From Steromphala cineraria (lineage: Eukaryota > Mollusca > Gastropoda > Trochida > Trochidae): a stretch of 64,000 nucleotides of DNA. The notes beneath the pieces were generated by a model, which was given only the letters and a program-made list of their open reading frames with translations, was not told the DNA's origin and made no database searches. This document shows, one piece after another, positions 36,294 through 63,659 of the stretch; position 1 is the first letter of the stretch, and each line of letters begins with the position of its first letter. Location: assembly GCA_916613615.1 (NCBI GenBank), contig OU744732.1:35562478-35626477 (forward strand), read 5' to 3'. Both the position numbers and the translations under genes were made by a program.

Positions 36294-36350
36294 CTGGTGA
36301 ATAAGATGTATCCATTAGAAATAAAACTTCTGAATTCGCATCACATGTCT

Positions 36351-38547: not shown

Positions 38548-38650
38548 CTGATTCCATAAGAAGTCTAACCAAGTCCAGACTTCTTACATCTACTGCAAGA
38601 TGAAGCGGCGTTTTGCCTTCACTATCCCGCACATTCTTCTTGGCGCCGGC
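38548..38650 (-). CDS. Copy 2 exon: ankyrin repeat
   Basis: Same unit as 14449-14551, DSEGKTPLHLAV. Just 5' of it, near 38680, an intron segment of about 950 bp present in units 1 and 4 is missing, including the fold-back element. Confidence 0.8.
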
Positions 38651-40890
38651 CTTGACATGAAGAAAAAAGCATTATTATATAATAAGCAATGACATATAGG
38701 GTTAAACCGTAAAAATATAATCCATATTTTAAGGAAAGCAGTAGAGAGTCATATTTTCACTGCAGTGAAAATATAATTCATATTTTCACTGCGGTGAGAA
38801 AAGTAGGACGGAAGCTATTACCTCCCTTTGAAACACGATTATCTCCTTTTGTGGCAACTGAACGCAGGCCTCACGCAACGGCGTTGGTTAGGACAGAAGA
38901 AAAACTATTCTTTCCGATGTTTACGTACTTTCACCGTATCTCACGAAGTGAGAAAGTCACATTTCCACTCGTGGCTGAGCAAAACGTGAAAATATCACTT
39001 TCTCACTTCACTCCATGAGATAGAAATGATATTTGGTAAAAACAATGAGATAGTCTTTATTTATAAACACTGATTTAACACAGACATTTGAAATACTCTC
39101 TATACGTTGAAACATTAAACAAATACATAATTAAGAATATTTGAAAGTACTCTCTGCCCGAATTTCAAAGCTGGAACCTTTTCACACTCCAAAGATCTGA
39201 GTCCAGGTTACACAAAACTTGTATGTAATGTTAATTCAGTTTGATTAAGATATTAACCTGTTTGAAGTCATACAGTAACGATCTATAACTTGCATGTAAT
39301 TACGTACATAAAAAGTACATCATATAAAAAAAGTTAAAAATACCTACACGCATTTTGGTTCAAACATACCTACATACTTTGGTTCAAACATACCTCCCAG
39401 CCGGGATATCCTCACGACCACGGTCTGAATGCATCCACCTTTGTCGCATGTCACTGTAAATAGTCTAGCGCAGACAAAACCCAGTCAATATCTATCCAAT
39501 CACATTGTCATTCCTAAATAGCGTTAAGCAGCAAAATGTATAATGAAGGGTTGAGTTAACTGCCCCTAGAATGATATCGAAAGCCTTTGTCGCTGTCCTT
39601 GCGATTGGTTAGATGAGCTTACGTCAAAAACCACAACAAAGGTCGGTGCATTCCATTCAGACCATGGCGGAGAGGATATCCCGACGGGTTCGAACCCCAA
39701 TAGTGACAATATTACTATTCTGTTCCTCGGAGCACGGTCGATTATAATCATTTCAGACTGCTCGCATAGCACGTAACTTACCGTCAGAAGAAAGCCAGAA
39801 AGAGCCACAAAACCGTTAAGGGCTGCAATGTGGAGAGGCGTGAAGAGATTGGGTCGAATCACTGAGTTCAGAACTGTCTTGTTCCTTTGCAGTAGCTTTT
39901 CGGGGAATCTGAAATTGAACTTCCTGTGACTTCACGGGTTCAGGTGTGGGGAGAAAACAGGACATTCGGACCGTTTCACCCACGCTTTAATCTGACAGTC
40001 TTTTGTTACAGGTCATGTGATGGGCGGTACGGAATACTATGTGATGTACAACATGTTATTCTAAATATACTACAGATATTGTCGACAACGTCAAACGTTT
40101 CATCCCTTATCAGTCATTGACAAGTACGCTTTTAGCCTTATTTTGTGACCTGGTGGGGTGAAAGGGTTTAAAGGTTTAGATTATGTAAGAAAGGGGGGAT
40201 GGGTGGGAGATGGGACATAGGGACACTCTGAATGTTTTCAATATTATAAAAATCACTTCACAGTTAACTCCAGATAGCACCAATCTGAATGGAAAGGTTT
40301 GACGCCCTCGGAGTTGGTTAGCTGAATATTCAGGGGAGATCACTCTAATAGATTAATTTTAACATTTTGGACTCACTTCACATCTCCATCAAGATTGCAG
40401 CAAGCGGCATGAAAAGGATTGAAGCCTTCAGAGTTGACGAGTTGTAGGTCCAATGAAGAGCACTCTAATAATGCTTCCATCAGTTCGTTGTTTTCAGATC
40501 TAATAGCGTCATGGAGAGGTGTGTCGCCATCTTTGTCCTCAGAGAAATATAAATTGATAAAAAATCTTCCTAGCGGTTTTAAGTCCCGTATATTCGCTAT
40601 GATTTGTTTATGCCTAGTGTTACGCAGTTTTACATGCATTAATCAAGCAGTGTGCAAAAACGATTTCCAGAAGGCATTTATGCCTTAAAAGTAAACTGAA
40701 CATACAAGAGACAAAAAAATCAGCACGTGGCAAATAAATGCTCACTTACTATAGGAAGTATTGACAGTGACTTTAAGTTTTAAGGTTTAAAATGCATAAA
40801 GGATTCTAATAGTATTGAATACGTCCTTGGTCAATAAAGCAAGTTGAATGCTATCATTTTAGAATATGTTAATCCTTTGCAAATTCTTTC

Positions 40891-41053
40891 TTGTGTATTA
40901 GGATCCGCTTTGTTCTTGATAAGGATCTTTGCACAGGCAACACTTGGATCCTCCTTGCCTACAGCCATGTGCAGAGGTGTTATCCCTTTGGCGTTCTTAG
41001 CGTCCTTGGCGACCTTGGCCTTCATCAAAATCTCAACCACTTCCGGATGATCT
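40891..41053 (-). CDS. Copy 2 exon: ankyrin units, splice donor lost
   Basis: Coding sequence is kept (KGITPLHMAVGKEDPSVAC), but the 5' splice site has changed from gt to ga. The frame reads on into intron as NTQERICKGL. It is the most 5' exon left in this copy. Confidence 0.8.
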
Positions 41054-41431: not shown

Positions 41432-44400
41432 AAAATGATTATGATTTTATTTGATCATTCCTTGATGTTTTCATTAAAGGCTCTTCACATCTGATGCACC
41501 TTATGATTCTGCAATTTTGAGAGATGATGTAATATTCTAATATTTATAATTAAGAGTGTTCATACACATTTGACGGACAAATTTTATAATCAATATAAGA
41601 TGAATATATTTATATATATTGTTTATATATTTTTTTGATTATCTTGCAGGTAAATAAATGTTTGTGTACAAGTTTGATTTTTCAGAATAGGCCTATATAT
41701 GTATGACCATTCCCTCTTTCACTCGATTGTGCATCAATAGAATATTGAAGCTTGTTAGGTATCTCACAACAATAGAGTCTTAACTAATTACGAAACCAAA
41801 CAAATAGGAGACTATTTTATCATCTATGTATCTACATGTAGATCTTAATTACACACATTTTTATGAATGTTTTAAGGTGTTGAATATGCATTCCTCTTAG
41901 AAATAGAGTATTTATGTTTACTGATGTATGTGCAACATGCTCTCATTGCAAAATAAAAAATGTGATATCAGAATATTTGTTATTTATCTATGCGTAAGAC
42001 GTCACACCCGAACCTCTGTAAAAAGGTCACCTGCATATAAATGCCACTTTTGGTCGTTCCCCTGGCAGCAAAAGTGTTAAAAAGAGAGTTCTACAGTTAT
42101 ATAAATGTGGTAGAAGTTTTTGGGGAGATAATTCAGCCAATGAAAATACTTTTTGGTTATCCACGACTTCGGGAATTCTCAACGGCCGTATAGTGACTTG
42201 CAAAAGCATCATGCCTTTAGGTTTATTTTTCATTTACAGTGTGAGAGGGAAAGTTTTTGAAAATCATATATGGATAGGGTTTTTCATTGGAAAAATACTG
42301 TTTTATAATTGTGTAAATTGTTCTTTGTTTTATGATAAATTTTAGTTTAATAATTTTACCAAATAAAAACTAATGAGAAGGAAAAAAGCGATACTTTGTA
42401 GAAGAAAGAGTTTTCTCCCCTGGATGCCGAACCACACGGGAATAGTCGAGCTTTTGCGAATGACCATATTTGAATCGGCGTTGCTGATTGCACAACTAAC
42501 TTCGATTGCCTCCAATCAGTTTTCTACCTTTCTATCCCATTTATTAGCCGTAATAGAACAGAGGCTAACTCGGGTATGACTGAGCTGCCCTTGTGGGGAG
42601 AGAATGACATTGGTTATGGTTGAGATAATGACCTACAGCCGAGTGGGTATCAGATATAACTTTCAAGCGATAGTGAGAAGGTTATATCTGATGGCCACGA
42701 GGATGTGCTCATTATCTCACATACACCACATGGCTTTACCAATTTGCATTTTAACAAAAGTAGAACATCAACCAAATATTTAGTTATTTGATAGTTGTTG
42801 TTATGGGGTAGAACTTAAATACATTCAACTTCTTAACATTTCATTTGCACAATACGCGAATTTCACGTGCAGATTGAGCATGCCAATCAGACATTCTGAG
42901 CAAAAAGCAAAATATGTTTTTTGTTGTTTCGACCAAAATTCTACATTGAACTGAAATTACATAATGTGAATACAATTTGTAAAAAACGTCACCGGTATTG
43001 TGATTTATGGCAAATGATATTATTATGTATAATACACTATTCAGTACATCAAATATTTCCCTCTTTATGAAGCAAAAGGTGTTGCTACACCAACGTTGTC
43101 AATTTCACCTTGTGATGCACGGATTTTAAGTAAATAGCACATCGCACGAGCTGTACACAATCGGAAGTACATGGTTTGAAGGTGGAGAGGAAATTTAAAA
43201 TGAAGTGGTCTCATGTTTTGAACAAATATATGGCCGCGTTTCAAGGTATTTTCAGGGGGAAGTAAAGGTGAGTTGAATTTTTAAGTATATTCATGTATTT
43301 GCTGTTGAATGTTATTTATGCGTGGACCTACGAAATTGCTGAAGTATGTTACAGAGGGTTTACGCGGTATAAAACAAGATCAACATTTATCAATAAAGTG
43401 AAACATGGATAAGCAATTTACAAAGATCACCAGTGTTTAATTTCAACAACAGACGTTACAATTTTGTTTCAGGGACTACATATGGACACTTGATTGACTA
43501 TCCAAACAACGTTAAAGTCGACCTTATTATGAATATTTCAGCAAAGACCATAGAGTCTAGCTTGTCAAAGGATTTAGAACATTGTTCACTTGGATTCTGT
43601 GTCATACTTGCTGAAACTTTTCAGCTAATCGGGAACGAGGTAAATTTTTGTGAGTGTTATGATGAAAATACTAGAAGACCTTGAGGTCTGCATTCATCAT
43701 GGATAAGCACAAAGCACAAAACGATATCACCATGTGATGTATTTTATATGAAAATAAGTTATATATCTGTAAATAAACTACGTTTCAACATGTTTTGATA
43801 TTATGTATTCTTTCGTAAATATGTCTTTGATACAAAGTCAACCTTTCAAGGTGTTAAACACAGTGGTTTTAAGCTCTTTCGAGGTGGGATACCACATAGA
43901 TGTGAGGCTAAGAGGTAAGGTTATACAATATAACCATCGCACGCCTGGTTATACGACATAGTTAACCTCTGATATTCACCTGATAACCACACCACGTGGT
44001 GTATATAAATAGACTGTGCGTTTTACGAGTGGGTTATATATGAAGAAAAAAACATAATATCAATTTCAACGTCTTTATTTTAAAATGTTCAAAAACAGGA
44101 TAATGAATCTCATGTAGAGATATCACAATACTTGTACGATACGATTATATATCCACTGGTATATGTTCGCACTCTCACGACTGAAGTATGGTTAAGTACA
44201 TTTACTTAGTCACAAAAACAGTATACAAAACATAGGATATGTATACACTGTAGATAGAGGAATGGTATTATTGATAATAATTGTATATACGTGCAATGTA
44301 ATAGGAATCATACAAATTGAGTAATAAGCTAGTATAGATTAAACGTTAGTTATATCTTAAAATCTACTGTATTAAATAAAGAAAATATGGTAATCAAAAA

Positions 44401-45822
44401 CATCTTTGAAACTTATCATTAAGATATGAAGGACCAGCAAGAAACAATTTTATATCATTTTACCTATTTTAATAAACCAAAATCTGAAATTCTAAAAGAT
44501 ATTCATTGTGTGACAGAGTACTACCCTTATTTCCCCACAGAGGCAGCTCAGTGTAAGCAAGCCTCTGTTCTATTACGCCTAGATCCTGGGGTTCCGTCTA
44601 ATTGCCCTAGCGACAAAAAGTTAAGATATCGCCCTTATTTGAATGAAATGAAAGCCAATCAAAACACCTTTTAGGTATCCATGACTTGGGGAAATCGAAT
44701 AGTGATATGGAAAATATCATGCCTTTATGTTTATTTTCATTTACATTGTGAGAGAGAAAGTATTTGAAAATCAGATATGGATCGGGTTTTTCATTAGATA
44801 GAAACTGTTTTATAATTGTGTACATTATTATTTGTTTTATGATACTGTAGATTTTATTTTACTTATTAACCAAACACAACTTATGAGAAGGTAAAGAGCG
44901 ATGTTTTGATAAAGGAAGAGTTATCCCACCCTGCATGTTAAATTTCAATGATAGCTTTGCTGAAGCATACGGAAATGACCGAGGTTTTGCGAATGAACAC
45001 TTTTGAAACGGCGTCGCTGATTGCGCAACAAACATTGATTGCCTCCAATCAGATTTCTACCTTTCTATCCCATATAATGCCCGTAATAGCGCAGATGCTT
45101 ACCAGGGTATGACTGAGCTGCCTCTGTGGGGAGAGAAGGGTTCCTCTTGAGGCCATGACTTTTCACACAGAACAAATAATAAACAAAATCTTCACCCGGG
45201 TATGACCGAGCTGCCTCTGTGGGGAGAGAGTTAAGTACTTCTGACATAAATAGAAACATTGAGTTCGTGAAAATGTTGAATGTGATATGTTTAAAGGTTC
45301 AATAAACATGTATTCAACAAAGATCTCACCCGTTCAATTAATTTTCTAAGATAAACAGTAGCTTGTGGATATTGCTAGTTACTATTCTCTCTTTCAACCC
45401 CTGCCGTACAGTGCTGTTCAAAATTAAGTACATCACGCTCGCGAACGTTTTTCAACATTTCGCGAAGATAGCGATGTTAATTTTGCACAGTGGTGTATCA
45501 TCCTACGATTAGTCGACTGCAAATATTGATGCGTTATCACAAACAGTGACCAGATATACAGATAACTGTCATTTTCCGATGAAATTGCATGAGACAATTT
45601 TCAAAACATAGGCTAGGACCAAAACTTACAATCCTTGGATGAATGGTAAGGTAAAACATATATCAAACAGTATTGCATTGGGAGCCAGAAACGTTTGTTG
45701 TTATTAAAAAGTTGAATAAAATATATGTGACAACACAACGTACATATAGAGAAGCATCACTCGATTATATGTTTAGTGTTTCCATCAAGTCCAAATATAA
45801 TGCTATCACAAACAAAATGTTT
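41432..45822. other. Unit 3 spacer
   Basis: At about 41432 unit 2 intron sequence switches to spacer equivalent to unit 1 position 5140 (ttatgattttatttgatc). The spacer then runs colinear, with a deletion of about 320 bp near 43376 (acaag joined to atcaacattt). It holds the same dispersed repeats and hairpin. No gene supported. Confidence 0.7.
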
Positions 45823-46240
45823 TTAGCAATATTCAATCAGATACTCTGGATAAATCTGTTTCTCACTGAACACGACATAGACTCTAGGATTCCTATCATG
45901 GTCGCATGCAGTATCTGCAAGCTTCGTTCTGTCACTCGGGTCGTAAACTGGAGGACGAGTTATCCCCCTTTCGCCTTTCCTTGACCTTCCCACAAGAACC
46001 TTTGCTTGGAACATGAACCTATGCTTATCTTTGTCTGCTTTTGTATAGCTATCAGAGTACTTTGCATCTACAGCAAAGTAAGCCCCTTCGCCATAGAGGG
46101 CACCGACGCGTTTTCCAGCCAACCGGAAGTCTATGTTTTGATGCGGGATCATTTGTGCAGCTTCCGGTGTTGTCCCGTGATAGAGATGCTTTTCATTGGC
46201 CTGGCCCTTGCCGTAGGTCGCTTCCATATCCGCCTTAGCT
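45823..46240 (-). CDS. Copy 3 exon: PARP catalytic core
   Basis: Open, motif-complete terminal exon. H-Y-V triad. Acceptor cttatccag kept. Confidence 0.8.
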
Positions 46241-46787
46241 CTGGATAAGAAAAAAGTCAGATTTAACGTGACTTTTTTCATATATGTACATGTAATTCAT
46301 GATGCCGATGTTGACGATAACGATGAGGATGTAGTGATGTAGAATGCGGATAATTGTACTTATTTTTCTGATAGTAATGCATCATTGATGATGATAATTG
46401 CTGATGCTAATCATGATGATGTTCATTGTGCTTATTTTCTCGTTAATAATGCACCATTAATGATAATGATTATGATGATGCTGATCATCATGATGATTAC
46501 AATGATTGTGATGATAACGATGGTGTAGATGATGCTGATGATAGCATTAACCTTACAGAGCATAATAATAATGATGATGCACTTTTAATCATGATTTAAA
46601 CGACGATGATGATGATGATGGTTATTGTTAATGATGCATTAATATGATTAATCAATATGTTGATAATAATGATTAATATTGATACACTAATCATCTTGAT
46701 GATGCCAATGCCGATGTCGAAGTCAGTGCTGATGCTGAAGCCGATTCCGATGATGATAATGATAATGATGACAACAGTAAATCTTAC

Positions 46788-47015
46788 ACGGCATAATGTC
46801 CCCATATCTTGAGGTTCTGCACACGCTGAATGGACACAACTGACCGATTGGGGAGTGACTTCAGCAGGTGCCCGCTCACTGTCTTGTACTCGTCCATTGT
46901 GGCCGGGTCAGTGGGGGTCAGACTGACCAGTCTCAGATCCTCATCACCCATGCTTGACCAATGGGCAGGGGGCTGCTTAGTTCGACTCAGGAACGATTTG
47001 GGCATTTGGGCGAGT
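46788..47015 (-). CDS. Copy 3 exon: N-terminal PARP segment
   Basis: Intact with both splice signals (attcaccag acceptor, gtaaga donor), but no upstream exon remains in this unit to join to it. Confidence 0.8.
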
Positions 47016-47073
47016 CTGGTGAATTAGGTGTATCCATTAGAAAAACAACTTCTGATTTTCGTATCACATGTCT

Positions 47074-47103
47074 TTAAGCGGCATTAGCACGTTTTTTGAT
47101 ATT
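47074..47103. mobile_element. Truncated stump of MITE family A at unit 3/4 joint
   Basis: Keeps the left TTAA and terminal repeat (with two substitutions), then stops at the shared ttttgatatt, where spacer sequence begins. Confidence 0.75.
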
Positions 47104-49123
47104 ATGTATTCTTTCGTAAATATGTCTTTGATACAAAGTCAACCTTTCAAGGTGTTAAACACAGTGGTTTTAAGCTCTTTCGAGGTGGGATACCACATAG
47201 ATGTGAGGCTAAGAGGTAAGGTTATACAATATAACCATCGCACGCCTGGTTATACGACATAGTTAACCTCTGATATTCACCTGATAACCACACCACGTGG
47301 TGTATATAAATAGACTGTGCGTTTTACGAGTGGGTTATATATGAAGAAAAAAACATAATATCAATTTCAACGTCTTTATTTTAAAATGTTCAAAAACAGG
47401 ATAATGAATCTCATGTAGAGATATCACAATACTTGTACGATACGATTATATATCCACTGGTATATGTTCGCACTCTCACGACTGAAGTATGGTTAAGTAC
47501 ATTTACTTAGTCACAAAAACAGTATACAAAACATAGGATATGTATACACTGTAGATAGAGGAATGGTATTATTGATAATAATTGTATATACGTGCAATGT
47601 AATAGGAATCATACAAATTGAGTAATTAGCTAGTATAGATTAAACGTTAGTTATATCTTAAAATCTACTGTATTAAATAAAGAAAATATGGTAATCAAAA
47701 ACATCTTTGAAACTTATCATTAAGATATGAAGGACCAGCAAGAAACAATTTTATATCATTTTACCTATTTTAATAAACCAAAATCTGAAATTCTAAAAGA
47801 TATTCATTGTGTGACAGAGTACTACCCTTATTTCCCCACAGAGGCAGCTCAGTGTAAGCAAGCCTCTGTTCTATTACGCCTAGATCCTGGGGTTCCGTCT
47901 AATTGCCCTAGCGACAAAAAGTTAAGATATCGCCCTTATTTGAATGAAATGAAAGCCAATCAAAACACCTTTTAGGTATCCATGACTTGGGGAAATCGAA
48001 TAGTGATATGGAAAATATCATGCCTTTATGTTTATTTTCATTTACATTGTGAGAGAGAAAGTATTTGAAAATCAGATATGGATCGGGTTTTTCATTAGAT
48101 AGAAACTGTTTTATAATTGTGTACATTATTATTTGTTTTATGATACTGTAGATTTTATTTTACTTATTAACCAAACACAACTTATGAGAAGGTAAAGAGC
48201 GATGTTTTGATAAAGGAAGAGTTATCCCACCCTGCATGTTAAATTTCAATGATAGCTTTGCTGAAGCATACGGAAATGACCGAGGTTTTGCGAATGAACA
48301 CTTTTGAAACGGCGTCGCTGATTGCGCAACAAACATTGATTGCCTCCAATCAGATTTCTACCTTTCTATCCCATATAATGCCCGTAATAGCGCAGATGCT
48401 TACCAGGGTATGACTGAGCTGCCTCTGTGGGGAGAGAAGGGTTCCTCTTGAGGCCATGACTTTTCACACAGAACAAATAATAAACAAAATCTTCACCCGG
48501 GTATGACCGAGCTGCCTCTGTGGGGAGAGAGTTAAGTACTTCTGACATAAATAGAAACATTGAGTTCGTGAAAATGTTGAATGTGATATGTTTAAAGGTT
48601 CAATAAACATGTATTCAACAAAGATCTCACCCGTTCAATTAATTTTCTAAGATAAACAGTAGCTTGTGGATATTGCTAGTTACTATTCTCTCTTTCAACC
48701 CCTGCCGTACAGTGCTGTTCAAAATTAAGTACATCACGCTCGCGAACGTTTTTCAACATTTCGCGAAGATAGCGATGTTAATTTTGCACAGTGGTGTATC
48801 ATCCTACGATTAGTCGACTGCAAATATTGATGCGTTATCACAAACAGTGACCAGATATACAGATAACTGTCATTTTCCGATGAAATTGCATGAGACAATT
48901 TTCAAAACATAGGCTAGGACCAAAACTTACAATCCTTGGATGAATGGTAAGGTAAAACATATATCAAACAGTATTGCATTGGGAGCCAGAAACGTTTGTT
49001 GTTATTAAAAAGTTGAATAAAATATATGTGACAACACAACGTACATATAGAGAAGCATCACTCGATTATATGTTTAGTGTTTCCATCAAGTCCAAATATA
49101 ATGCTATCACAAACAAAATGTTT

Positions 49124-49541
49124 TTAGCAATATTCAATCAGATACTCTGGATAAATCTGTTTCTCACTGAACACGACATAGACTCTAGGATTCCTATCAT
49201 GGTCGCATGCAGTATCTGCAAGCTTCGTTCTGTCACTCGGGTCGTAAACTGGAGGACGAGTTATCCCCCTTTCGCCTTTCCTTGACCTTCCCACAAGAAC
49301 CTTTGCTTGGAACATGAACCTATGCTTATCTTTGTCTGCTTTTGTATAGCTATCAGAGTACTTTGCATCTACAGCAAAGTAAGCCCCTTCGCCATAGAGG
49401 GCACCGACGCGTTTTCCAGCCAACCGGAAGTCTATGTTTTGATGCGGGATCATTTGTGCAGCTTCCGGTGTTGTCCCGTGATAGAGATGCTTTTCATTGG
49501 CCTGGCCCTTGCCGTAGGTCGCTTCCATATCCGCCTTAGCT
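49124..49541 (-). CDS. Copy 4 exon: PARP catalytic core
   Basis: Terminal exon, same protein as copy 3. LYHGT, GAYFA and YPEYLI motifs, then TAA. Confidence 0.92.
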
Positions 49542-52500
49542 CTGGATAAGAAAAAAGTCAGATTTAACGTGACTTTTTTCATATATGTACATGTAATTCA
49601 TGATGCCGATGTTGACGATAACGATGAGGATGTAGTGATGTAGAATGCGGATAATTGTACTTATTTTTCTGATAGTAATGCATCATTGATGATGATAATT
49701 GCTGATGCTAATCATGATGATGTTCATTGTGCTTATTTTCTCGTTAATAATGCACCATTAATGATAATGATTATGATGATGCTGATCATCATGATGATTA
49801 CAATGATTGTGATGATAACGATGGTGTAGATGATGCTGATGATAGCATTAACCTTACAGAGCATAATAATAATGATGATGCACTTTTAATCATGATTTAA
49901 ACGACGATGATGATGATGATGGTTATTGTTAATGATGCATTAATATGATTAATCAATATGTTGATAATAATGATTAATATTGATACACTAATCATCTTGA
50001 TGATGCCAATGCCGATGTCGAAGTCAGTGCTGATGCTGAAGCCGATTCCGATGATGATAATGATAATGATGACAACAGTAAATCTTACACGGCATAATGT
50101 CCCCATATCTTGAGGTTCTGCACACGCTGAATGGACACAACTGACCGATTGGGGAGTGACTTCAGCAGGTGCCCGCTCACTGTCTTGTACTCGTCCATTG
50201 TGGCCGGGTCAGTGGGGGTCAGACTGACCAGTCTCAGATCCTCATCACCCATGCTTGACCAATGGGCAGGGGGCTGCTTAGTTCGACTCAGGAACGATTT
50301 GGGCATTTGGGCGAGTCTGGTGAATTAGGTGTATCCATTAGAAAAACAACTTCTGATTTTCGTATCACATGTCTTTAAGCGGCATTAGCACGTTTTTTTA
50401 TATTTTATATTTTTATATTTTCAATGATAATCGAAAGTTACTGCTAAATGTATTATTTTGATAGTGTCATAAATCTCATTGCACAAGCCAATCAGCCATA
50501 GTCAGAGGACAAAGTTAGAAGATTCACACAAAATCCATTGGCGGCCATTTTTTGTGAACACCTTTTATTCATTTTCAGTAAGAAAAAGGAATCGCATGGC
50601 TAAACTTTAAATTGTATATTTGAATTATTACTGCTCAAATGTGTTTGAATACATTGTCTTTCAATTGGAACCATTTATTTTCATTTTCCTGACATCACCT
50701 TATATTTAAACCAAAACGTGCTACTGCCCCTTTAATGAGAGAACTTACATATAAAATATATGTATATTATTCATATTAAAAACAAACTAATTTAGCATAA
50801 ACTCAAACTCGCGCCTTTTTCTTCAGAATGTCCTTTTGCGTTTCGTTCATTTGAAGACATTAACCATAGCTTCAAATGAGTTATGCTTTGGTTCGTAGAT
50901 TGTGACTTAAAGTCAATCACTGTCATAACATCGCACTTATAAATTGTATATTGGGAACATGAATTAAAAAAACTTAAAACACTAACTAAAACAATGCTAG
51001 ATATATGACATATCTATATTACTCAAGCACTGAAATATTATGAAAATCAACATAAGATAAAAAACCTTTCTATGACGCGTCTGACTGTCATGTTTTCAAT
51101 CAAATCGAGGGGTGTCTTCCCAGCATTGTTAGCAAGTGTTAATTTGCCGCCATTCTCCACAAGATGGCAACGTATAGCAATGGTCGCGTCTTCGTCACGT
51201 GACTTCAACAGTATATAAAACATAGTAAAGTTAAAATAAAAATGTCGAGGAAACGAGCAACACAGAGAGTTCGATATTGAATCTTTCGACGATTTATGTA
51301 TTTAAAAAGGGCTCTCCGCATGTCAAAAATGGAATTGAATATTAAATATTGATTTGAGGATAATATGAAATGAGTTAAATCAGTTTATACTTTAAGTTTT
51401 ATCCAAAATTATATGAATATGATAATATGAATACAGTGGCTTGCGTTTTACATCAATAAACTATTAGACCTTCATTGTTTTTGTTGTATCCTCGTCAACG
51501 CCACTTTCCATGTTCGCAAGATGCAAAGGTGTATTCCCTTCTTTGTCGGCCAAATTCACATCAGAACCTGTAAATAATCAGCTTGTTATGATTTTTCTAA
51601 ATATTGCTTGCTTCCTGTTGTTCAATTATTTCAAACCACTATAACCTATAACCATTGATTTCATCAACAAAGTGACGTCAAAAGCAAATTAATGTTTGAG
51701 AGGGAATGTTAGCAAACCTTCAATGTATATGTCTTTAGTAAGAATAATTAAATTATGACATGAATATTAATGAAGTCCTAACACTCAAAACTATGACCCT
51801 TAAAGAGCCACTCCGTGGTACAACTTTAGAAGCCTTATGAGATTATGAAAAACATGGCGATTCATAGATTTCATTATAGATTATTGCTTGGTGCCCCAAA
51901 GGGCACCAAATATTATGATTTGATTCTCCTAAAACTTTTCTGAATTCTCTCTATATTACTCTTGATATTTTCAAAGGGAAGCCGCGCCAATCACATGTGT
52001 TGTATCCAAATCAAAAGACCAATGAACAGAGCTGCAGCAAAAAATGCATTACGTCACCATGTGGGTAATACAAAATATTTGGCATATTTAAACTGTGGAA
52101 TATGATTTCGCTTTAAATGTCATGTTAAAAGAGAAACAATATTTTCTATTAAAGACGCTGATAAATGTTAACAGACTCAATCAAAAACATCTTCATTTGA
52201 TGAAGAGTCTGCATTTGTTCCAGATAAGAGCATTATTTCGCATTCAATAATCGCAGAATCCACTTTTTTATAACCCACGCGATTTAATTTCACGCTGGGC
52301 TCGCCTGGCGATTTAAAAGTAATGTTTGTGTAAGAACGATGGTGATATCGAAAAAAGACTTATGTTTACTAATAGGTAGATCACTTACGACCACGTGACA
52401 AGTCATACTTAACGATGTCACTAAATGTTTACGTTGAAAACATGCATTTATTATCAGAGCTACTGAAATTGACTCGTGCTATATTTAGAATATGACCTAC

Positions 52501-55500
52501 ATCGCTGGTTCCATACGGTTACTATAAGGCCGCGGCTTAGCTCAGCGGAGCTGGTATGAAATCCCGTCAGATCATCGGAAAGTATTTTGTTTATTATCTG
52601 TAATACTACAGTTAATAATTAACCAGCATGACAAGGAGATATGGTTTTGGCAGTACGTTTTGCACAATTTCCTGTCATTGTCAACGCTACATGGCAACCA
52701 ATGCAGTGCTTTTACTTCAAGTAACAACATCACAATGCCATAACATCATAAACTGTTACTGTCACATCACTGTCTTGAAAATCTAGTGTTGTTGTGTTCA
52801 GAGATTTTTTTTTTCTCTGAGATCTCAAAAAGAGTGAATTTGAATGATAAATAGAATATCACCCTCGTGTGTTTTGATTTGAAATATACCAACAATCGTT
52901 GATGAATGTAAAACGTATTCATAACTTTCAGCAATTCGTGTTGATAGAAATTAATTTTGTGAAATTAAATTTGAGTAATACTCGTGTTAATATTACTTCT
53001 GTTATCCAGTGTTGTATATATTATTGTTCGACAAATCACAATCTCCTTCAATTGCCTATGTGGCACCAAGCATGCCTTTTTAAAGGCTTTTTTTGTTTAT
53101 GAAATTGTGGATAATATATCATTATACTACAGTTCCTTGTTTATTATGTTGTATTGTAAACCTAATATAATAACTTTTCAGGACGTACCAAAACTCAAAA
53201 TGGCGGACCAATAGCCGGTATTACTAGATATGAACTTTCATCAATGGTAAATCTGCTCAGACTATGAATACTATTATAATCTGTTCCTATTATGATTATT
53301 GTTCATGAAATGAATACTCTATTCTGTAATTAATGATCATCCTGCTACAACCGTATATATGTCTACGCATTATGCTCAAACCTATCCCCTGATGTCCATC
53401 GAGGGAAAACTCTCGTATCGCTGACGGCTGGTTGTTTAATGTTATTAATAGCCTGTCTGTTTTCAGCCAATCTATTTAGAACTCCGTACATTGTTTTATA
53501 GCGATGAGCCTATTAAAAATCCTATAAAACACCGAGTTTACAAGGAGCGTGCAGCGGGGAATGAGAAATATCATCAGATAGCCCTTCCAATTGTTAATTT
53601 GAAGCACACTAAGAGCACGCGGAACGAGGTCCGGGAACCAGTTTGCCGCTATCGCTGAAAGGGCATCTTTTGATTGGATTGCTATATAAAGCGATACGAA
53701 AGTTTGTGATGGATGGATATCAGGAAAAAGATTGGAGCATAACAAGTAGGCATATACGCTGACGTAGCAGGATGAACTTTGATCAACGTGTTACCTGATT
53801 CCATAAGAAGTCTAACCAAGTCCAGACTTCTTACATCTACTGCAAGATGAAGCGGAGTTTTGCCTTCACTATCCCGCACATTCGTCGTGGCGCCGGCCTT
53901 GACATGAAGAAAAAAGCATTATTATATAAATAGAGAATACTAAACGAATGGTAATGTGATAACATTTTTAAGCAACGAGTGTATAGAATTGGCATCAGAC
54001 GAACGAAAGTGAGTCTGATAAAAAATTATATTCACGAGTTGCTTAAAAATGTTATCACATTACCATGAGTTTAGTATTTTATTTATTATTCAACACTCAT
54101 ATCAATATTTATATAAACAAATCGTCAAAACAAGAATCAGCTGACTTTGAACCAGTCGGGGAAACCAGCGTATGAATTTCCATGAGTCCAAATAACATAG
54201 TTCGCTATTTTTTTTATGTTTACACATGTTTACGCCTATAAACATGATACAAAGTATATTGGTGAATATTATCAATTTCATTATCAAAAGATGCATTGAT
54301 GAAATAAACACTAAGAAGCAACGAAAACTGTCAACACATCATGTATTCGCAAAGTGACGTCATCAGATCGTCAAGTGACGTCATCGGAATGTGTCCTGTT
54401 TCTAGGTCACGTTATGTAGGCGAACAGTTTCAACGGCAGCGATTGATTGATTGATTGCATTGACATGAGTTACTGAATGTGTTGATAGGAATCGGGAGAT
54501 AGAACTTGTGTAAAGGTATTTACACGATAACATGTTCAGATTGTGTGCTTGTTGAAGGGAAAGGTTATGGTGGGATCGAAGCAAGTAAATAGTCGAAGCG
54601 CCATGTTAATGTTACGGTAGGCTGAGGTGGCAACACCGCTTGTGACGGCACAGAAGGTGGACAAGTGATCAAGGGAAGGATTGATTTGTGCTGGGTAACA
54701 AAAAGATAATGCATTTAAAAAACCGCTAAGATAATATTCTTTCACATAAATTAACAGTTTGTTGAGAATGTAAAATTTGACAGTCGCCACTTATGAGTCA
54801 CGTGATTGGACAATGTCATGTGACATTCAAAGGTAGTTCCGTTTCTTTGCACGAGATGATAACACACATGTGTGTTACCAACTCATTGTTATCTAATGAG
54901 TGATCTCACCACGGTTGATTAATAATAAGCAATGACATATAGGGTTAAACCGTAAAAATATAATCCATATTTTAAGGAAAGCACTGGAGAGTCATATTTT
55001 CACTGCAGTGAAAATATAATTCATATTTTCACTGCGGTGAGAAAAGTAGGACCGAAGCTATTACCTCCCTTTGAAACACGATTATCTCACTTTGTGGTAA
55101 CTGAACGCAGGCCTCACGCAACGGCGTTGGTTAGGACAGAAGAAAAACTATTCTGTGCGATGTTTGCGTACTTTTACGTATCTCATGAAGTGAGAAAGTC
55201 ACATTTCCACTCGTGGCTGCGCAACACGTGAACATATCATTTTCCCACTTAACTCCATGAGATAGAAATGATATTCGGTAAAAACAATGAGATAGTCTTT
55301 ATTTATGAACACTGATTTAACACAGACATTTGAAATACTCTCTATACGTTGAAACATTAAAGAAATACATTATTAAGAATATTTGAAAGTACTCTCTGCC
55401 CGAATTTCAAAGCTGGAACCTTTTCACACTCGAAAAATCTGAGTCCAGGTTACACAAAACTTGTATGTAATGTTAATTCAGTTTGATTAAGATATTAACC

Positions 55501-58500
55501 TGTTTGAAGTCATACAGTAACGATCTATAACTTGCATGTAATTACGTACATAAAAAGTACATCATATAAAAAAAGTTAAAAATACCTACACGCATTTTGG
55601 TTAAACACTTTGGTTCAAACATACCTACATACTTTGGTTCAAACATACCTCCCAGCCGGGATATCCTCACGACCACGGTCTGAATGCATCCACCTTTGTC
55701 GCATGTCACTGTAAATAGTCTAGCGCAGACAAAACCCAGTCAATAGCTATCCAATCACATTGTCATTCCTAAATAGCGTTAAGCGGCAAAATGTATAATG
55801 AAGGGTTGATTAGAGTTACATGCCCCTAGCATGATATCGAAAGCCTTTGTCGCTGTCCTTGCGATTGGTTAGATGAGCTTACGTCAAAAACCGCAACAAA
55901 GGTCGGTGCATTCCATTCAGACCATGGCGGAGAGGATATCCCGACGGGTTCGAACCCCAATAGTGACAATATTACTATTCTGTTCCTCGGAGCACGGTCG
56001 ATTATAATCATATCAGACTGCTAGCATAGCATGTAACTTACCGTCAGAAGAAAGCCAGAAAGAGCCACAAAACCGTTAAGGGCTGCAATGTGGAGAGGCG
56101 TGAAGAGATGGGGTCGAATCACTGCGTTCAGAACTGTCTTGTTCCTTTGCATTAGCTTTTCGGGGAATCTGAAATTGAACTTCCTGTGACTTCACGGGTT
56201 CAGGTGTGGGGAGACAACAGGACATGCGGACCGTTTCACCCACGCTTTAATCTGACAGTCTTTTGTTACAGGTCATGTGATGCGCGGTACCGAAATATTA
56301 TGTGATGTACAACATGTTATTCTAAATATACTACAGATATTGTCGACAACGTCAAACGTTTCATCCCTTATCAGTCATTGACAAGTACGCTTTTAGCCTT
56401 ATTTTGTGACCTGGTGGGGTGAAAGGGTTTAAAGGTTTAGATTCTGTAAGAAAGGGGGGATGGGTGGGAGATGGGCCATATGGACACTCTAAATGTTTAC
56501 AATATTATAAAAATCACTTCACAGTTAACTCCAGATAGCACCAATCTGAATGGAAAGGTTTGACGCCCTCGGAGTTGGTTAGCTGAATATTCAGGGGAGA
56601 TCACTCTAATAGATTGATTTTAACATTTTGGACTCACTTCACATCTCCATCAAGATTGCAGCAAGCGGCATGAAAAGGATTGAAGCCTTCAGAGTTGACG
56701 AGTTGTAGGTCCAATGAAGAGCACTCTAATAATGCTTCCATCAGTTCGTTGTTTTCAGATCTAATAGCGTCATGGAGAGGTGTGTCGCCATCTTTGTCCT
56801 CAGAGAAAATATAAATTGAGTCAACATCTTCCTACCAGTTTTATGTCCCGTAACAATGATTTGTTAATGCCTAGTGCTACGCAGTGTTATATGCATTAAT
56901 TAAAGGGGTGTGTAAAGAGATTTCCAGAAGGTATTTATGCCTTAAAAGTAAACTTAACAAACATGAGATCAGAAAATCAGCACGTACAATTTAAGAAATG
57001 CTCACTTCTTACGGGAAATATTGACAGTAACTTAAAGGTTAACAACAAGAATTAACATAGGATTCTATTGAGTATTTAATATGTCCTTGCATGGTCAATA
57101 GGAAAAGTCAAGTTGAATTATATCATTTAAGAGACTTGTTATCTTTTGCAAATCCTTACTTGTGTATTAGGATCCGCTTTGTTCTTGATAAGGATCTTTG
57201 CACAGGCAACACTTGGATCCTCCTTGCCTACAGCCATGTGCAGAGGTGTTATCCCTTTGGCGTTCTTAGCGTTCTTGGCGACCTTGACCTTCATCAAAAT
57301 CTCAACCACTTCCGGGTGATCTCTAAAGTAAGTGAGTCGTACACATGATAGCTGTCGAGATGTATGGAAAATTATTGTTGTTATTGTCAACTTTGAATTA
57401 TAAGCAACCAATCTTGATTAGTTATGACCTCTTGAAGTAACATAATCATTTTTATTACATAAGTAAACGTTGGAAACTAATTTGGTGTTAGTATTTACTT
57501 TTAATGGTCCCGTAGAATTTTACTTAATTAGTTGCCACTGTTGTAATGATATCATAATTAAAGATCTATGAGTTATGGCAATCACTTGCGTTTGAAGAAT
57601 GTCATCTTCATATCAGCCGAGTTCAATAAATGATCTAGTTTAACATTTACACTCTGAAATGAAACGGTCATTAAATCTAAAATTATCAAAGTTATCCAAA
57701 AAAATGAAAAATATAGATTTTTTTCTTCATTTTGTCTCTCAAGGTTTCCTATATACTTGATCAATCTTTTATCTTTTTTAGGGTCTAGCTGACGGATTGA
57801 CGGAAATGAACCTACATACCGCGATTTGTGAACAATTTATCAATCAATATACACGGATCAGTAGAACACGGATATAGCGAACACTCGGATATAGCGAACA
57901 AATTTTCAAGTCCCGTCCCTATATATTATCATTAAAATGATATGCGTATAGCGAACACCGGATATAGCGAACTAAATTCTATGGTCCCTTGGAGTTCGTT
58001 ATATCCGAGTTCTAATGTATATCATTATTTATCAATTAATGATAATCTTGCAGCGTTAGAAACAAAAAAACTGTATTTTTATCATTGTGTCACCTCCTTT
58101 TTTCCATTTTTTTTATGAATCGTGAATCGGTCGGGAAGATAAGATCATCAAAGAATCATTTGAGAGGGTGTGCGACAAGGTTGTCTCATCTTTCATTTCA
58201 TTTTGCTCTAATGCTCTGAGATCTTGGTATTCTATGAAATAAAAAACCCTTCAACTTATATAATACCACAGTCTTAATTAAACAACATGCCATATGTTTT
58301 CTTGAATCATACAAAATGATATTGTGAACTTACATCCATAAACGGTTCTTCATGATAATACCCTACATTTAACTAGAAAAGCTAAGAATACCTTCAATTA
58401 CGTGTGATGATTGACATATCAGTGAGATATTACCGATTCATAAGTGAAAAAGGTGAGTTACTTTAAACATTTATCCATGAAGGAAGTATTTAAGTGCATT

Positions 58501-61500
58501 TATTTCTTAAGTGTACATGTTCTTTAAACCCTGACACAGCGAGGGTTTTTATGTATTTAATTTTACTATTAAATAAAAATTAAAATCGGCCGTGTTTTGA
58601 GGGAAACAAAGTAAAAAATATGAATCAAGACTTCCTCTCCACAACGGCCTGAAAGCACCCAAGCTAGGTGTTTGTTCAACACCAGTTTAGGGCAGACAAA
58701 ACCTAGTCACAAGCGGACCAATCACATTGTCCCTTTCAAAATCCGACATGGCGGCGACCATGTAGAAATTGGACTTTACAGGAGCTACATGCCACTAGCT
58801 CTGATATCGAAAGTTTCTTCTTTGTGATTGGCTAGATGAGCTTACGTCAGGACATGCGGGTAATGGGGGTGCCTTCAGACTGTGAATGAGAGGAAAGGTT
58901 CGAACCCCACTAGAGATACTATTTTACACAATTTTTCCTCGAAGCACAGTCGATTTTAATCAGATTGCGGAGCACGGTCGATTTTAATCAGACTGACTTC
59001 GGTTAATAAATCGGAGAAAAAAACGACTCTTCGATCTTCTGCAAAAACCTCATCTTCCGGTTCAAATCCTTGAGGTTTTATTTCTCCGTTGAGGTGTTTT
59101 TCGAGCAGAAAACTTCGGAGGAGTAAGATAGCCTTCATAAAAAATAGAAATAATCAGCAAGTGTCGTATCCTACCCTGATACAGCGAAGTGAAGAGGGGT
59201 GTCTCCCATCTCATTTGCCTTGTCCTTGTCACTTCCGGCAGTCAGTAGTGACGTCACTATTGCTGTTTTTCCTCGGTAGCAGGCGATGTGAAGAGCTGTA
59301 AACCCTTCTATTTGTTCATCAACCTGAAGCAACGGGTAATGTCAGCTCGAAAAGTGAGAACCAGTTAAACATTTCGGAAGGTAAAAAAGTCCATGTACAA
59401 GAATACTGATTTATTGTAATTAAAGAGCCTTTAAAGTTTAAGAATTGTATTTGGTACTTATAAGTGGTTTATGAACTAGACAGATTTGATCATGATTTTA
59501 TGACATTATTACAAATAAAATCACAAATCAATAAACTTATTTTAAAGTTTGATATTCTTTCTGTAGTACAATTGTAAGTATCTTGAGAGAATGGAGTATC
59601 CAGATAACATTTTAATTCACTTTCATCATGAATTTCTTTTAAAAAATCTTTTTTTTAATGTTAGATTTGATCTTATTTGTGAACCATTGATAAATAAATT
59701 TATACTCGTATTGGACGGTCCATAATTCAGTTACGGTTAATTCAAGCTCTCTTCTAGTTTATTTGAATATGACAGTTGTAACAATAGTGCCAAATGAAAT
59801 GGAATTAACACGCGTTAAACAGTCATAGAGACAGTCGACAGTAGGAAGTATAATGATAACACGAAATGGAAATCTATCCATTTGCAACACTATGTCTTAA
59901 ATCAATGTTCCATGATCGGTTAAGCGACGCAAATTAATTTCCATACCTAAAATGAATGCTGATCACATCAGGTGGCATTTGGTTGATAATTTATAAGTTA
60001 TCATACTTCTTTGCATATTCGGGTTCAGTAATGATATGTTTGACTTACAAAAGAAAAATTGGCATAAACTCATGATTATAAAAAGATTTTTAAAATTACA
60101 ACTTCCTCTTACAGATTCATCATGCGAGTTGAATTTATATTCAGGACCTGATGAAATATTGCGTATTCAACTATATAGTTTGGTAGAAAAATCATCCATT
60201 ACAAAAGTATCCAATTTTGATTTTAGACTTCACCACCAAAACTTTGCTGAAGCCAAAAATGAACCCACAATCAGTGACGTCAGCGTTATTTGTGTATATG
60301 GATCCATCTTCCATCTTGACACGAAGGTGTCTTATTAATGTTTGCTATTGCAATTAATTGATTTCTTAGTCGAACTCTGATAAGGAATAGAAAAAGGAAG
60401 TCATGAGTGAAAAGGCAAAGGATAAATACCTTAAGATGACGAAATAGAGGGAGGGCAGCGCAGCATCAGGTGACTCTATTACATTTCGACAGCTTGATAC
60501 TTTTCTTAAAGTGACACAGAGTATCTTTCTTAAAATTGTATTTGGTTTAGATAAGCTACAAAATATCTAATATGCTGATTGAAGTTCATATCTCATCACT
60601 GGACTTGCAAATATATCCATTTATGTGTAATATCTCTAAAATGCTTGATTTTATGGAAAAATCAAGAAAACATCACAAATAAGTTTAATATTCAGAATTA
60701 TCCATCCAATTAAACTTACGATACCTAGTAAACACTATCGAATCGAATATATCTTCCTGTGAGCTTATGACAAGGTTTCAAAATTACGATAGGCGAATTT
60801 GCGCGCGCCACTCGAGCCCCTTTGTCCGGTTTTCGATCAAAATCCCGACTTTGAATGGCCGTATTTTTGCTCTAATGTACTACTTGATCTTTACTTATTA
60901 TTTCATAACAGTTAGTGGTTCCCGATGTAATAACATCGATTTCAAAATTTTACATATGTGATCCTATCAACATCCTCTGTGTCTCTTTAAGAGTCCATTT
61001 GTGGATATGATTGTCAATTTCTAGGGTAATATCAGTGTATAAAATAGATTGGAAACTTCGCCTGTCCTGAAAATTAATGAAAGTTTTTGAAAAGTTACTA
61101 GTCCTGACAAAAAAGTAGACATTTTACGGACTGGTGGACTGGCTATATTTATATAACACTGGTAATACACGTTAATATGTCTTTCCTGTCGAAACAGTTT
61201 CGTGAGTTTCATTACTTTACGTAACCCTGCAAAACACGCCCCTTTCTGTTCATGCCAATTGACTGATAATTTATTAATGAAAATACAAAGAAAAGGAACA
61301 AATGCTGTTTAACCTTTACACTCTGCATATGCACCTTTTAAATGACCCTGACCTTACTCTTGTCCAGTGACGTCAGCAACGCCTTGACCTTCTCTACATC
61401 GTCCGCCTTGACCGCAGTCATCAGCGGGCTGACGTCAGACCGGTCACCCACACTAGCCATGTCCAATTCGGCCAACAACGCAGGCAATTTCAGTGCAATA

Positions 61501-63659
61501 TCTGGTGGTAAGCAGTCATAATCAATATAAAAAGATCTTCAAAACAACTATTGCAAGTGAGCTGAAACAACTGTATTTCTTTGACAATTACTTAAGAATT
61601 TGATTCAATTGTGTCACGTAAAAACATCCTCAGTTTTCCACGACTGAATATTCTGATTCTCTGAATGCTTTCTCCCCTTGGACTTTCTAGTTACAGAGTT
61701 ATGTCCCTTGATTCTGAAAATGGACTTTAAGCGAATCATATGCTCAAATATCTCAGGTCGATTGCACCAAGATGAAAGGAATTTTGGTTTTGAATACAGT
61801 AAGTTGTTGTTTGACGCGGCTTGGGCAAAATTGCAGCCATTAGCGGCGTGGGGTTTTAATACATCTGATGATAATCTTTAACAGAATTTGAAAGCAATTT
61901 CCGAAATGACATTCTTGACAGAGTTAATAACCTTGATTCTTGATGCTTGATTCTCTTATTTACCGGTCCATTGGGGACAAGTTTTCTCAGAAAATATTAC
62001 ACAAGAGTGAAGAAAATGTATGTTTTGGATACACCTGGTGATAGTCCTGGTCGATTTTGAAACCATTTCCGAAATATCATGTTTGGCCAGTTATACCTGA
62101 CCCTTTATTCCTCTACAAAAGTTCTAATGTTCCAATGGAGAGACATATTCTCAAACAGTATCAAAACCCTTGTGAATAACGTTTCGGTTTCAGAAGTAAT
62201 GTCTTTCATTGACCTATGCTATATATCAGATCGTGGGGTCATGTGAGCCATGCTCACTTTTTTCAATTTTACATTCAGTTTTCACGGTGTAACATGGTTA
62301 TATTATATGCCCATACCGTCGGTGAGAAACCCCCATTGCCCTTTTTGTGAAGTGGTCATCGTCTGGCTCTTCTTGGTGTCCGGGTTTGACCGATTGACCA
62401 GTGAAACCTTCCTGTCTTGGAACACGCAGACAACAGGGCTTAGCACCCATGATCTGACCTTGAACTTGACCTTCATGTCACCATCAGCATCTATAGCTAT
62501 GACCTCGCCTTCTTCTCCAAGACACTGGAAGGATACGTTGAGCGAAATGAAATACTACTCGAAAGAATGTAAGGAACATTCAAGTTTGTATAATTTGCAA
62601 AAAATCTAATAATTGCTGCTCAAAAGGAAAGTATTCGTTTGGAGTTCTATTTATACACACACCTGACCATAGGCCTCAAATTTCTGAGCATTGGAGTTTG
62701 TTTCTTTTTTTGACAAATTTGATGTTTTTGAAATTACGACTTTTCTATCATATTCTTTATGTATTTCTCAAATTATTCACTGGGGTACAATCCAAGAGCA
62801 ATACAAGCGCCCACGACCAGACTGAATCAATCACCATGTGATTTTAATTTGCAATCCCCTGACATCGAATCTCAATACAATATTAAAGTCACGCAAGTCA
62901 CTTCCTTAGGTAATAATTATAGTCATTACGTACATCAGCCATCTTATCATTCCAGCCGCCATGTCCTTGTTGAAGTTCAAGAGCCGCGTTGTAGTTTGTT
63001 ATAGTCTTCACAATGTCGCCCAGAGAAAATGTATGCAGCTACGAAAGAAATGCGCATATACATGTATGTAACGAAATATTTTAGATCTTGTAATCTTTAA
63101 TTTTAATATTAAATGCGAATGTTATTATCAGTCAAGTAACTCCACGTTACGCTAACTCCCGACCTCGCCACCTTCTCGATACAATTTCAACGAGAAAATG
63201 ATTTGATTGGATGTATCTCAAGTCGGGCCGCTCGAGCGAATCTAGCTTCTGAGCCCAGGGTACAGATTAGTGGAGTTAGCGTTACGTTCATACCCTGAAA
63301 CAGGATAGAGTAGTATGTGTTTCTTGTACTTCAACACATTTTTGCTTTAATAAATGGAATTTGAAAGTAATACTGATTTGCAAACAGGGTAATTCTTATT
63401 CATTTTTGCAACCATTGGAAATGATGATGAAGACGAAATGTAATAAAACATAATAAATGATTGGAGATAACCAAGTAATCCGAAACATTAAAGTTGAATA
63501 CAGTAACAAATGACTGACAGCCTCGTTATGAGAGTGAACTCTGACCTTTGTGAGAGTAGAGGACACGATTGGCCACATCTCTGCGTCCTCGTATTGTACC
63601 CGGATGTACCTCTTTCCCTCCTCTGTTCCACGTACAACTGTTCCAACATCCTTTAGACA
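49124..63659 (-). CDS. MIB-ankyrin-PARP fusion gene, copy 4 (longest; 5' end off window)
   Basis: Exons 5' to 3': 63659-63546, 63038-62934, 62524-62317, 61501-61353, 59323-59175, 57322-57160, 56798-56638, 56168-56042, 53897-53795, 51567-51470, 51202-51066, 50316-50089, 49541-49124. That is 2160 nt in one frame, 719 codons plus stop visible. The first exon begins in phase 0 after aatccgccag, so more exons lie beyond the window; MIB/HERC2 and ZZ domains, usual at MIB N-termini, would be expected there. Order: end of one SH3 repeat, a full SH3 repeat, nine or ten ankyrins, PARP catalytic domain with H-Y-V triad. All splice borders checked are AG/GT. No RING is seen between ankyrins and PARP. This is the copy most likely to be functional. 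It could act as a mono-ADP-ribosyltransferase targeted by a Mind bomb-type recognition region. Confidence 0.85.
50089..50316 (-). CDS. Copy 4 exon: N-terminal PARP segment
   Basis: Same as copy 1 (PPAHW, RVQNLKIWGHY), phase-matched to the ankyrin exon at 51066-51202. Confidence 0.9.
50375..50735. mobile_element. MITE family A, unit 4
   Basis: Full-length counterpart of 11016-11376. Its left repeat has the same two substitutions as the unit 3 stump, so units 3 and 4 are the closest relatives. Confidence 0.75.
51066..51202 (-). CDS. Copy 4 exon: last MIB ankyrin units
   Basis: Equivalent of 11708-11844, open, same phases. Confidence 0.8.
51470..51567 (-). CDS. Copy 4 exon: ankyrin repeat
   Basis: Equivalent of 12113-12210, GNTPLHLAN. 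Confidence 0.8.
53795..53897 (-). CDS. Copy 4 exon: ankyrin repeat
   Basis: Equivalent of 14449-14551, with Lys to Thr before TNVRD. Confidence 0.85.
53937..54077. repeat. Fold-back element, unit 4
   Basis: Counterpart of 14591-14731 with the same paired arms. Confidence 0.8.
56042..56168 (-). CDS. Copy 4 exon: ankyrin repeat
   Basis: Equivalent of 16638-16764, LFTPLHIAALNGF. Confidence 0.85.
56638..56798 (-). CDS. Copy 4 exon: two ankyrin units
   Basis: Equivalent of 17226-17386, GDTPLHDAI and EGFNPFHAACC. Confidence 0.88.
57160..57322 (-). CDS. Copy 4 exon: ankyrin units
   Basis: Equivalent of 17738-17900, donor gtaagg present (lost in copy 2). Confidence 0.86.
57859..58017. mobile_element. 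Pogo/Tigger-like MITE (family C), unit 4
   Basis: Same inverted ends as 18437-18610, with one fewer internal ggatatagcgaac unit. Confidence 0.65.
59175..59323 (-). CDS. Copy 4 exon: ankyrin repeats
   Basis: Equivalent of 19765-19913, GFTALHIACYRG and GDTPLHFAVS. Confidence 0.86.
61353..61501 (-). CDS. Copy 4 exon: first ankyrin unit
   Basis: Equivalent of 21979-22127; a few substitutions change SLLRSPDK to ALLTSLDK. Confidence 0.75.
62317..62524 (-). CDS. Copy 4 exon: second half of MIB SH3 repeat
   Basis: Begins CLGEEGEVIAIDADGDMKVK after ttccag. This copy fixes the acceptor position, because the upstream AG seen in copy 1 is absent here. Confidence 0.82.
62934..63038 (-). CDS. Copy 4 exon: first half of MIB SH3 repeat
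   Basis: Contains GHGGWNDKMAD. Donor gtacgt, acceptor tttcgtag. Confidence 0.85.
63130..63306. repeat. Inverted-repeat element with gttacgctaactcc ends (family D)
   Basis: The left part has ctccacgttacgctaactcc and the right part gtggagttagcgttacg, then cataccctgaaacagg. In unit 1 the left end is longer (from about 24034, cctgtctcagggtacgaac) and the right half is missing because homology breaks there. Probably a MITE. Confidence 0.55.
63546..63659 (-). CDS. Copy 4 exon: end of an upstream MIB SH3 repeat
   Basis: Encodes CLKDVGTVVRGTEEGKRYIR and EMWPIVSSTLTK. It begins with the same CL-x-x-x-G-x-V pattern and phase as the exon at 62317-62524, so it is probably the second half of the preceding SH3 repeat. 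Absent from all other copies in the window. Confidence 0.72.

Follow-up and report, generated by a model that had tools for sequence, protein, structure and literature searches.

A gastropod Mind bomb paralogue with a predicted PARP domain where RING fingers are expected

The Mind bomb proteins MIB1 and MIB2 combine MIB_HERC2-ZZ-MIB_HERC2 modules, two SH3_15 repeats (REP), an ankyrin block and RINGs. The same front modules, followed by a MIB1-type ankyrin block, were found in a predicted protein of the snail Steromphala cineraria. Unlike MIB1 and MIB2, this protein carries a PARP catalytic domain where the RINGs are expected, and no RING was found. Its gene, named copy C, lies on the minus strand of a 64,000-nucleotide stretch of DNA (the window; assembly GCA_916613615.1, contig OU744732.1, positions 35,562,478 to 35,626,477), where its exons run from 63659 to 49124, with further exons upstream.

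Four other systems are close to the snail protein. PARP12, PARP14 and PARP15, assigned to Clade 3 in PMC2964712, share with it the catalytic domain, the H-Y-aliphatic triad and a C-terminal YPE motif. However, the snail protein has Mind bomb modules, and no WWE, macro or CCCH domain was matched by Pfam in its 991 residues. Tankyrase likewise places ankyrins before a C-terminal PARP domain. In contrast to tankyrase, the snail protein showed no SAM match in Pfam, a short linker alone separating the last ankyrin from PARP; it has no catalytic Glu (V or I in 13 of 13 family proteins), and its PARP part is much closer to PARP15. A tankyrase-like reading was rejected because triad, SAM and similarity all disagree with it. 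A Dictyostelium U-box/macro/PARP protein, also described in PMC2964712, combines PARP and a domain of ubiquitin-ligase type in a single chain. There U-box and PARP coexist, whereas no RING was found in the snail protein. The last system is a set of four sea-urchin proteins among the matches listed in our searches, P0077, P0128, P0138 and P0142 (Diadema setosum for two, Lytechinus pictus and D. antillarum). They carry MIB_HERC2, ZZ, ankyrins and a protein kinase end, with SH3_15 in two of the four and RING not listed, and a Pfam rescan of P0077 and P0128 gave the same domain result. These also join a Mind bomb front to another enzyme where the RING is expected, but they end in a kinase and fall outside the PARP clade of the tree described below. 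They appear to be a second exchange of the output domain.

Gene model and domain architecture

The preliminary description had joined 13 minus-strand exons of the window in one frame with matched phases. All of these exons (E1 to E13) were present in one frame, with AG/GT at every internal border and matched phases, and the joined protein is 716 residues long. About 50 kb were read past the upper end of the window, and five further coding exons were found there, in frame and with AG/GT inner borders. On the window scale and the minus strand they are N1 (67817-67604), N2 (66983-66812), N3 (66425-66319), N4 (66075-65875) and N5 (64318-64197). They encode MIB_HERC2-ZZ-MIB_HERC2 and the beginning of the SH3_15 pair, and the joining of N5 to E1 confirmed the exon start at 63659. 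The complete model of copy C has 18 coding exons and 991 residues.

Inside the window, E1 (63546..63659) encodes the later part of the first SH3_15, E2 (62934..63038) the second SH3_15 with the motif GHGGWND, and E3 (62317..62524) its end and a linker. The ankyrin block begins after more linker in E4 (61353..61501) and continues through E5 (59175..59323), E6 (57160..57322), E7 (56638..56798, with GDTPLHDAI), E8 (56042..56168), E9 (53795..53897) and E10 (51470..51567). E11 (51066..51202) holds the last ankyrin. E12 (50089..50316) supplies a linker and the first part of the PARP domain, and E13 (49124..49541) the catalytic core with H, Y and V, followed by the stop. The intron between E12 and E13 (49541-50089), upstream of the catalytic His, is in phase 2; PMC1266365 gives a phase 0 intron at that place in most human PARPs.

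Pfam found MIB_HERC2, ZZ, MIB_HERC2, two SH3_15, ankyrins and PARP in this order in the 991-residue protein, all above their cut-offs. MIB_HERC2 scored 108 bits over two stretches, ZZ 46.1 bits and SH3_15 89.9 bits over two stretches, and the region aligns to the MZM-REP part of MIB1. The ankyrin block is of the MIB type, and PARP occupies residues 818-990. In the joined 716-residue protein, a profile search proposed earlier found SH3_15, ankyrins and PARP, the last with 67.5 bits against a cut-off of 26.7. The MIB SH3 repeat, the MIB-type ankyrins and the PARP domain previously read from sequence motifs were borne out by Pfam and by exon content. An NCBIfam scan matched only ankyrin-type models or others far under cut-off. 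A structure model from five rows was poor (mean predicted local distance difference test score, pLDDT, of 53) and was not used. The model from 60 of the 174 proteins collected had a mean pLDDT of 87.3 and a predicted template modelling score of 0.46; its domain placement was not interpreted. The predicted structure matches 4xi7, which is MIB1 with a Jagged1 N-box peptide.

No RING was found in the 991-residue protein by Pfam, and none in the 133.9 kb around the gene by a RING profile run over open stretches of at least 25 codons, a search that a RING over very short exons could escape. As a control, this profile recovered 5/5 RING-bearing proteins from outside the profile and 0/6 others. The two other PARP-bearing loci of the genome (20 and 30 kb fetched) gave no RING either. 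A hidden RING exon was tried and rejected: tblastn with RING ends matched ankyrin sequence or gave E>1, and the RING profile matched none. Alignment with RING-type MIB2 located the change, as the similarity reaches the last ankyrin (KTPLDL) and stops within E11, which finishes shortly after. Beyond this point RING-type MIB2 has a linker and RINGs, and the snail protein has a short linker and PARP. The locus of copy C encodes one continuous predicted gene, from the MIB part through PARP.

Relatives in gastropods and in the genome

A database search with the PARP end gave 53 proteins. Forty of them pair PARP with PF02825, which we take to be WWE, and have no Mind bomb domain. The other 13 are gastropod records from Haliotis (seven), Batillaria (two), Gigantopelta, Littorina, Pomacea and Nucella. 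Their domain listings hold SH3_15, ankyrins and PARP in 10/13, with MIB_HERC2 too in 9/13 and RING in 0/13. Starting from the PARP end of the Littorina protein, a second search gave 16 matches; ten belong to the family, and two of these (P0167 and P0168) were new. The preliminary description had suggested a search of other proteomes for the same domain order. Twelve database proteins share the Mind bomb-ankyrin-PARP order, the named ones spanning five gastropod genera. P0167 and P0168 are complete, intron-free frames, the one 969 residues long on a 3,520-base contig and the other 973 residues long on a contig of 4,038 bases. Since the loci in the window genome span about 15, 19 and 30 kb, these contigs look like spliced transcripts. 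An alignment of 11 rows (the 716-residue window piece and ten database proteins, P0011 being without most of its N-terminal part) showed the same order and the same junction. Identity to its first row, H. rufescens P0002, is 42-83% (57% for the window) across the Mind bomb, ankyrin and PARP parts, which excludes chance. In 12 relatives MZM is 48-71% and REP 39-63% identical to the window protein.

The genome (1,270,125,005 bases, 281 contigs, the contig of the window being C39) was searched with PF00644, which gave at least 48 exon matches. Nine places were examined with their flanks, and MIB-type or ankyrin exons stood in order beside PARP at two of them (C39:40.01 and 46.59 Mb); a third, at C3:52.28 Mb, gave one weak ankyrin match per query. 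PARP-bearing MIB genes are found at three places on C39, the first being the window at 35.57-35.63 Mb. The gene at 40.012-40.026 Mb has MIB_HERC2, ZZ, SH3_15, ankyrins and PARP in order. The one at 46.563-46.593 Mb has MIB-type and SH3_15 matches, ankyrins and PARP, its PARP exon being closest to P0004 (72%). RING-type MIB genes were found as well. At C39:24.866-24.882 Mb, a pair of RING-part matches follows MIB_HERC2 and ZZ in order; at C3:12.705-12.783 Mb, some 65 kb separate MIB-type matches from the RING-part match beyond them. A whole-protein search with MIB1 placed 109 of its 109 matches in the ankyrin part. Because RING-type MIB genes are still in the genome, the MIB-PARP gene is an added paralogue.

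It is extremely improbable that two neighbouring genes, one MIB and one PARP, were wrongly joined. The E11-E12 intron is only 0.75 kb, the E11 donor is weak and E12 contains an in-frame ATG, as such a reading would have it, but database proteins from several genera share the junction, as do the two intron-free frames, no RING or other end was found for the MIB part, and MIB-type, ankyrin and PARP exons stand in the same order at the two other loci. The two-gene reading was rejected on the shared junction, the intron-free frames and the lack of an alternative MIB end.

For the Mind bomb and ankyrin part, a tree was built from 46 rows (the window and 45 of the 174 proteins, chosen by architecture and taxon) over 724 columns with LG+G4 and midpoint rooting; treekit flagged long branches in it. 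All 12 PARP rows group in a single clade with support of 100/99. The label 'none' on the tree came from precomputed Pfam and is wrong for P0056, P0057 and P0086, which have RING-like C-termini; the PARP clade is unaffected. Its nearest outside row is P0055 of the bivalve Sinanodonta woodiana, a gene model with neither RING nor PARP, in which either the RING was lost before PARP arrived or the model is incomplete. The clade holds Littorina, Nucella, Gigantopelta, Haliotis and the window protein. We take Littorina and Nucella to be caenogastropods and Haliotis and the window species to be vetigastropods; as all are inside the clade, the fusion would be older than the split of these lineages. A single origin, in an ancestor shared by several lineages of gastropods, fits the tree. 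Pairwise distances of the Mind bomb-ankyrin and PARP parts gave r of 0.97 (66 pairs, 12 proteins), although shared ancestry alone gives high values, and this agreement is a sign of consistency rather than proof. In a MIB profile search 7,994 candidates were scored and the best 120 of 197 matches were listed; P0009 and P0012, members of the profile itself, were not among them, so it cannot be claimed that bivalves, cephalopods, patellogastropods or heterobranchs lack the fusion. Two MIB-like proteins of Littorina saxatilis, P0145 and P0146, have long repeats between MIB_HERC2 and SH3_15 and stop behind the ankyrins, carrying no RING and no PARP.

No MIB-PARP protein was described in the open-licence literature surveyed by title and abstract start, and neither mind bomb nor MIB occurs in the main text of the 2010 PARP family survey (PMC2964712). 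As far as searched, neither the combination nor the output change predicted for it appears to have been described. Each half is a known family, and the proteins are already public, mostly under E3-ligase names. Nine of the 13 gastropod records are called E3 ubiquitin-protein ligase (MIB2-like, MIB1-like, mib1-like or mind-bomb-like), an annotation error in view of the RING domain that none of them lists.

Predicted chemistry and function

The catalytic triad of the window protein is H874-Y907-V973, the third position being set by alignment to PARP15, where we assume the residue to be L. H and Y are kept in 13/13 family proteins, and the third residue is I in nine and V in four. YPEYLI, earlier taken as a sign of PARP, is indeed a conserved C-terminal motif, but it is not part of the triad and provides no catalytic Glu. 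The PARP part is most like PARP15, PARP12 and PARP14 (PARP15 at 3.3e-34 versus tankyrase-2 at 5.9e-9). Since the third residue is V or I in all 13 proteins, mono-ADP-ribosylation is predicted. PMC1266365 reports two human PARPs of the I type to be active, and PARP10 and PARP14 are mono-transferases according to PMC2964712.

Taken together, the results make it probable that the gene is a Mind bomb paralogue whose RINGs were replaced by a PARP12/14/15-type domain, and that its product mono-ADP-ribosylates clients from a pathway of defence or stress. Selection of client proteins would stay with the N-terminal modules and ankyrins, and the C-terminal domain would move a single ADP-ribose from NAD+ onto the client or itself, instead of ubiquitin. 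The preliminary description had proposed such a swap of ubiquitin-ligase output for ADP-ribosylation with the recognition part kept, and our comparisons of sequence support it: MZM, REP and ankyrins are kept, no RING was found, and the PARP domain retains H, Y and V or I. The least secure step is that the clients may belong to defence or stress rather than to the conserved Notch-ligand step. The lean towards defence comes from a paralogue that is tandemly duplicated and diverges faster than canonical RING-type MIB2 (tree paths of about 1.34 versus about 0.29, between different species pairs). MIB2 is linked to BCL10 in NF-kappaB signalling according to PMC6027159.

The same chemistry might instead act on Delta or Jagged tails through MZM-REP and tune ligand endocytosis, a version that we consider unlikely. 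PMC11887331 reports that MZM and REP of human MIB1 bind the N-box and C-box of JAG1, and that fly in vivo work supports the same binding for Delta. MZM and REP are kept in the 12 relatives at the identities given above, and the match of the structure model to 4xi7 would agree with such binding, but the genome retains RING-type MIB genes, and divergence is faster in the PARP form than in canonical MIB2.

Rather less probable still is a pseudo-enzyme or decoy, in which PARP is inactive or only binds NAD+ or ADP-ribose and the RING-less protein competes with MIB1/MIB2 for clients. The failure to find a RING in the protein or the surrounding 133.9 kb would suit it, as would V in four of the 13 proteins, the residue at this position in a human PARP that we take to be the inactive PARP13. 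Drosophila Mib1 without MZM appears dominant-negative, though with its RINGs kept, according to PMC11887331. The invariant H and Y, the I in nine proteins and the reported activities of the PARPs cited above argue against a decoy. The PARP part is also no less conserved than the rest of the protein (mean distance 41% versus 49%, 66 pairs).

Several points weigh against our preferred reading of an active, defence-related transferase, and the V of the presumed PARP13 is one of them. E10 and E11 have weak splice donors (GTCTAA and GTTTTT), the transcript nature of the P0167 and P0168 contigs is inferred from length, and H. rubra P0054 (829 residues) is annotated without the PARP end. Equally long branches also occur in MIB2-like rows without PARP, such as P0073, a RING protein of Haliotis (end branch 0.69), and a Littorina pair (inner branch 0.99), and this weakens the defence reading. 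Two further copies in the window, A and B, gave no match for MIB_HERC2 or ZZ exons, and part of the array may be decaying. The changes between the copies are too few to show selection, and such young copies say little on constraint. V at the third position is given for one human PARP in PMC1266365.

On a wider view, the chances seem about even that the Mind bomb front is a re-toolable platform, with a PARP in gastropods and a separate kinase swap in sea urchins, and that the gastropod form represents tandemly duplicating effectors beside retained RING-type MIBs. If true, evolution would have switched the output of a single targeting scaffold from ubiquitin to ADP-ribose, in effect a natural experiment. 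With it one could ask directly whether the front modules alone decide which clients a MIB chooses. It would also open the question whether ADP-ribosylation can replace ubiquitylation in ligand endocytosis or immune signalling.

Copies in the window and neighbouring features

Copy A (9767..23899, minus strand) contains E2-E13 in an open frame, all borders being intact AG/GT; E1 was not matched in it. Copy B (35104..41053, minus strand) contains E6-E13, its E6 donor reads GA, and E1-E5 were not matched. Between copies A and C, the PARP exons differ by three synonymous changes and one other (dN 0.002, dS 0.020) and the Mind bomb-ankyrin exons by eight and 11 (dN 0.010, dS 0.025). Between B and C, the PARP exons differ by one non-synonymous change with no synonymous one, and the Mind bomb-ankyrin exons by five synonymous changes and eight others (dN 0.013, dS 0.028). 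A PARP-only duplicate at 45823..47015 (minus strand) holds E12 and E13 and is identical to copy C. It belongs to a tandem duplication of 3,301 bp whose units, 43793..47097 and 47094..50398 on the plus strand, differ by one mismatch, and it carries a second set of PARP exons. This duplication is either a recent event or assembly redundancy. It seems improbable that faulty assembly, for instance haplotypes left uncollapsed, produced the array (copies A and B and the 3.3-kb duplicate): the single differing base of the 3,301-bp units would fit it, but the aligned pieces of A, B and C are 92-98% identical and differ in extent, and copy C is untouched by this explanation. Searched with P0002 and P0004, the flanks of the window (about 50 kb on the upper side and 20 kb on the lower) gave no further copy.

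Elsewhere in the genome, MIB-type matches with no PARP match listed near them were found at C39:40.001-40.003, 40.044-40.048 and 40.063-40.070 Mb, at C39:26.857-26.862 and 9.958-9.961 Mb, and at C5:67.199-67.204 Mb. Within C39:40.001-40.070 Mb, MIB-type matches are clustered at four places, and a PARP match is listed near only one.

Inside the window, fragments at 33602-34849 (minus strand) resemble, by reading, a reverse transcriptase of a non-LTR retrotransposon, with no Pfam match at 0.001. Next to the MIB-PARP copies stand two copies of another gene (2504-4163 and 26353-27993, plus strand), the second having an open frame of 546 residues and no Pfam match at 0.001. The product of both, by reading, has a signal peptide, a coiled coil, a Thr-rich part and a YWTD-like end.

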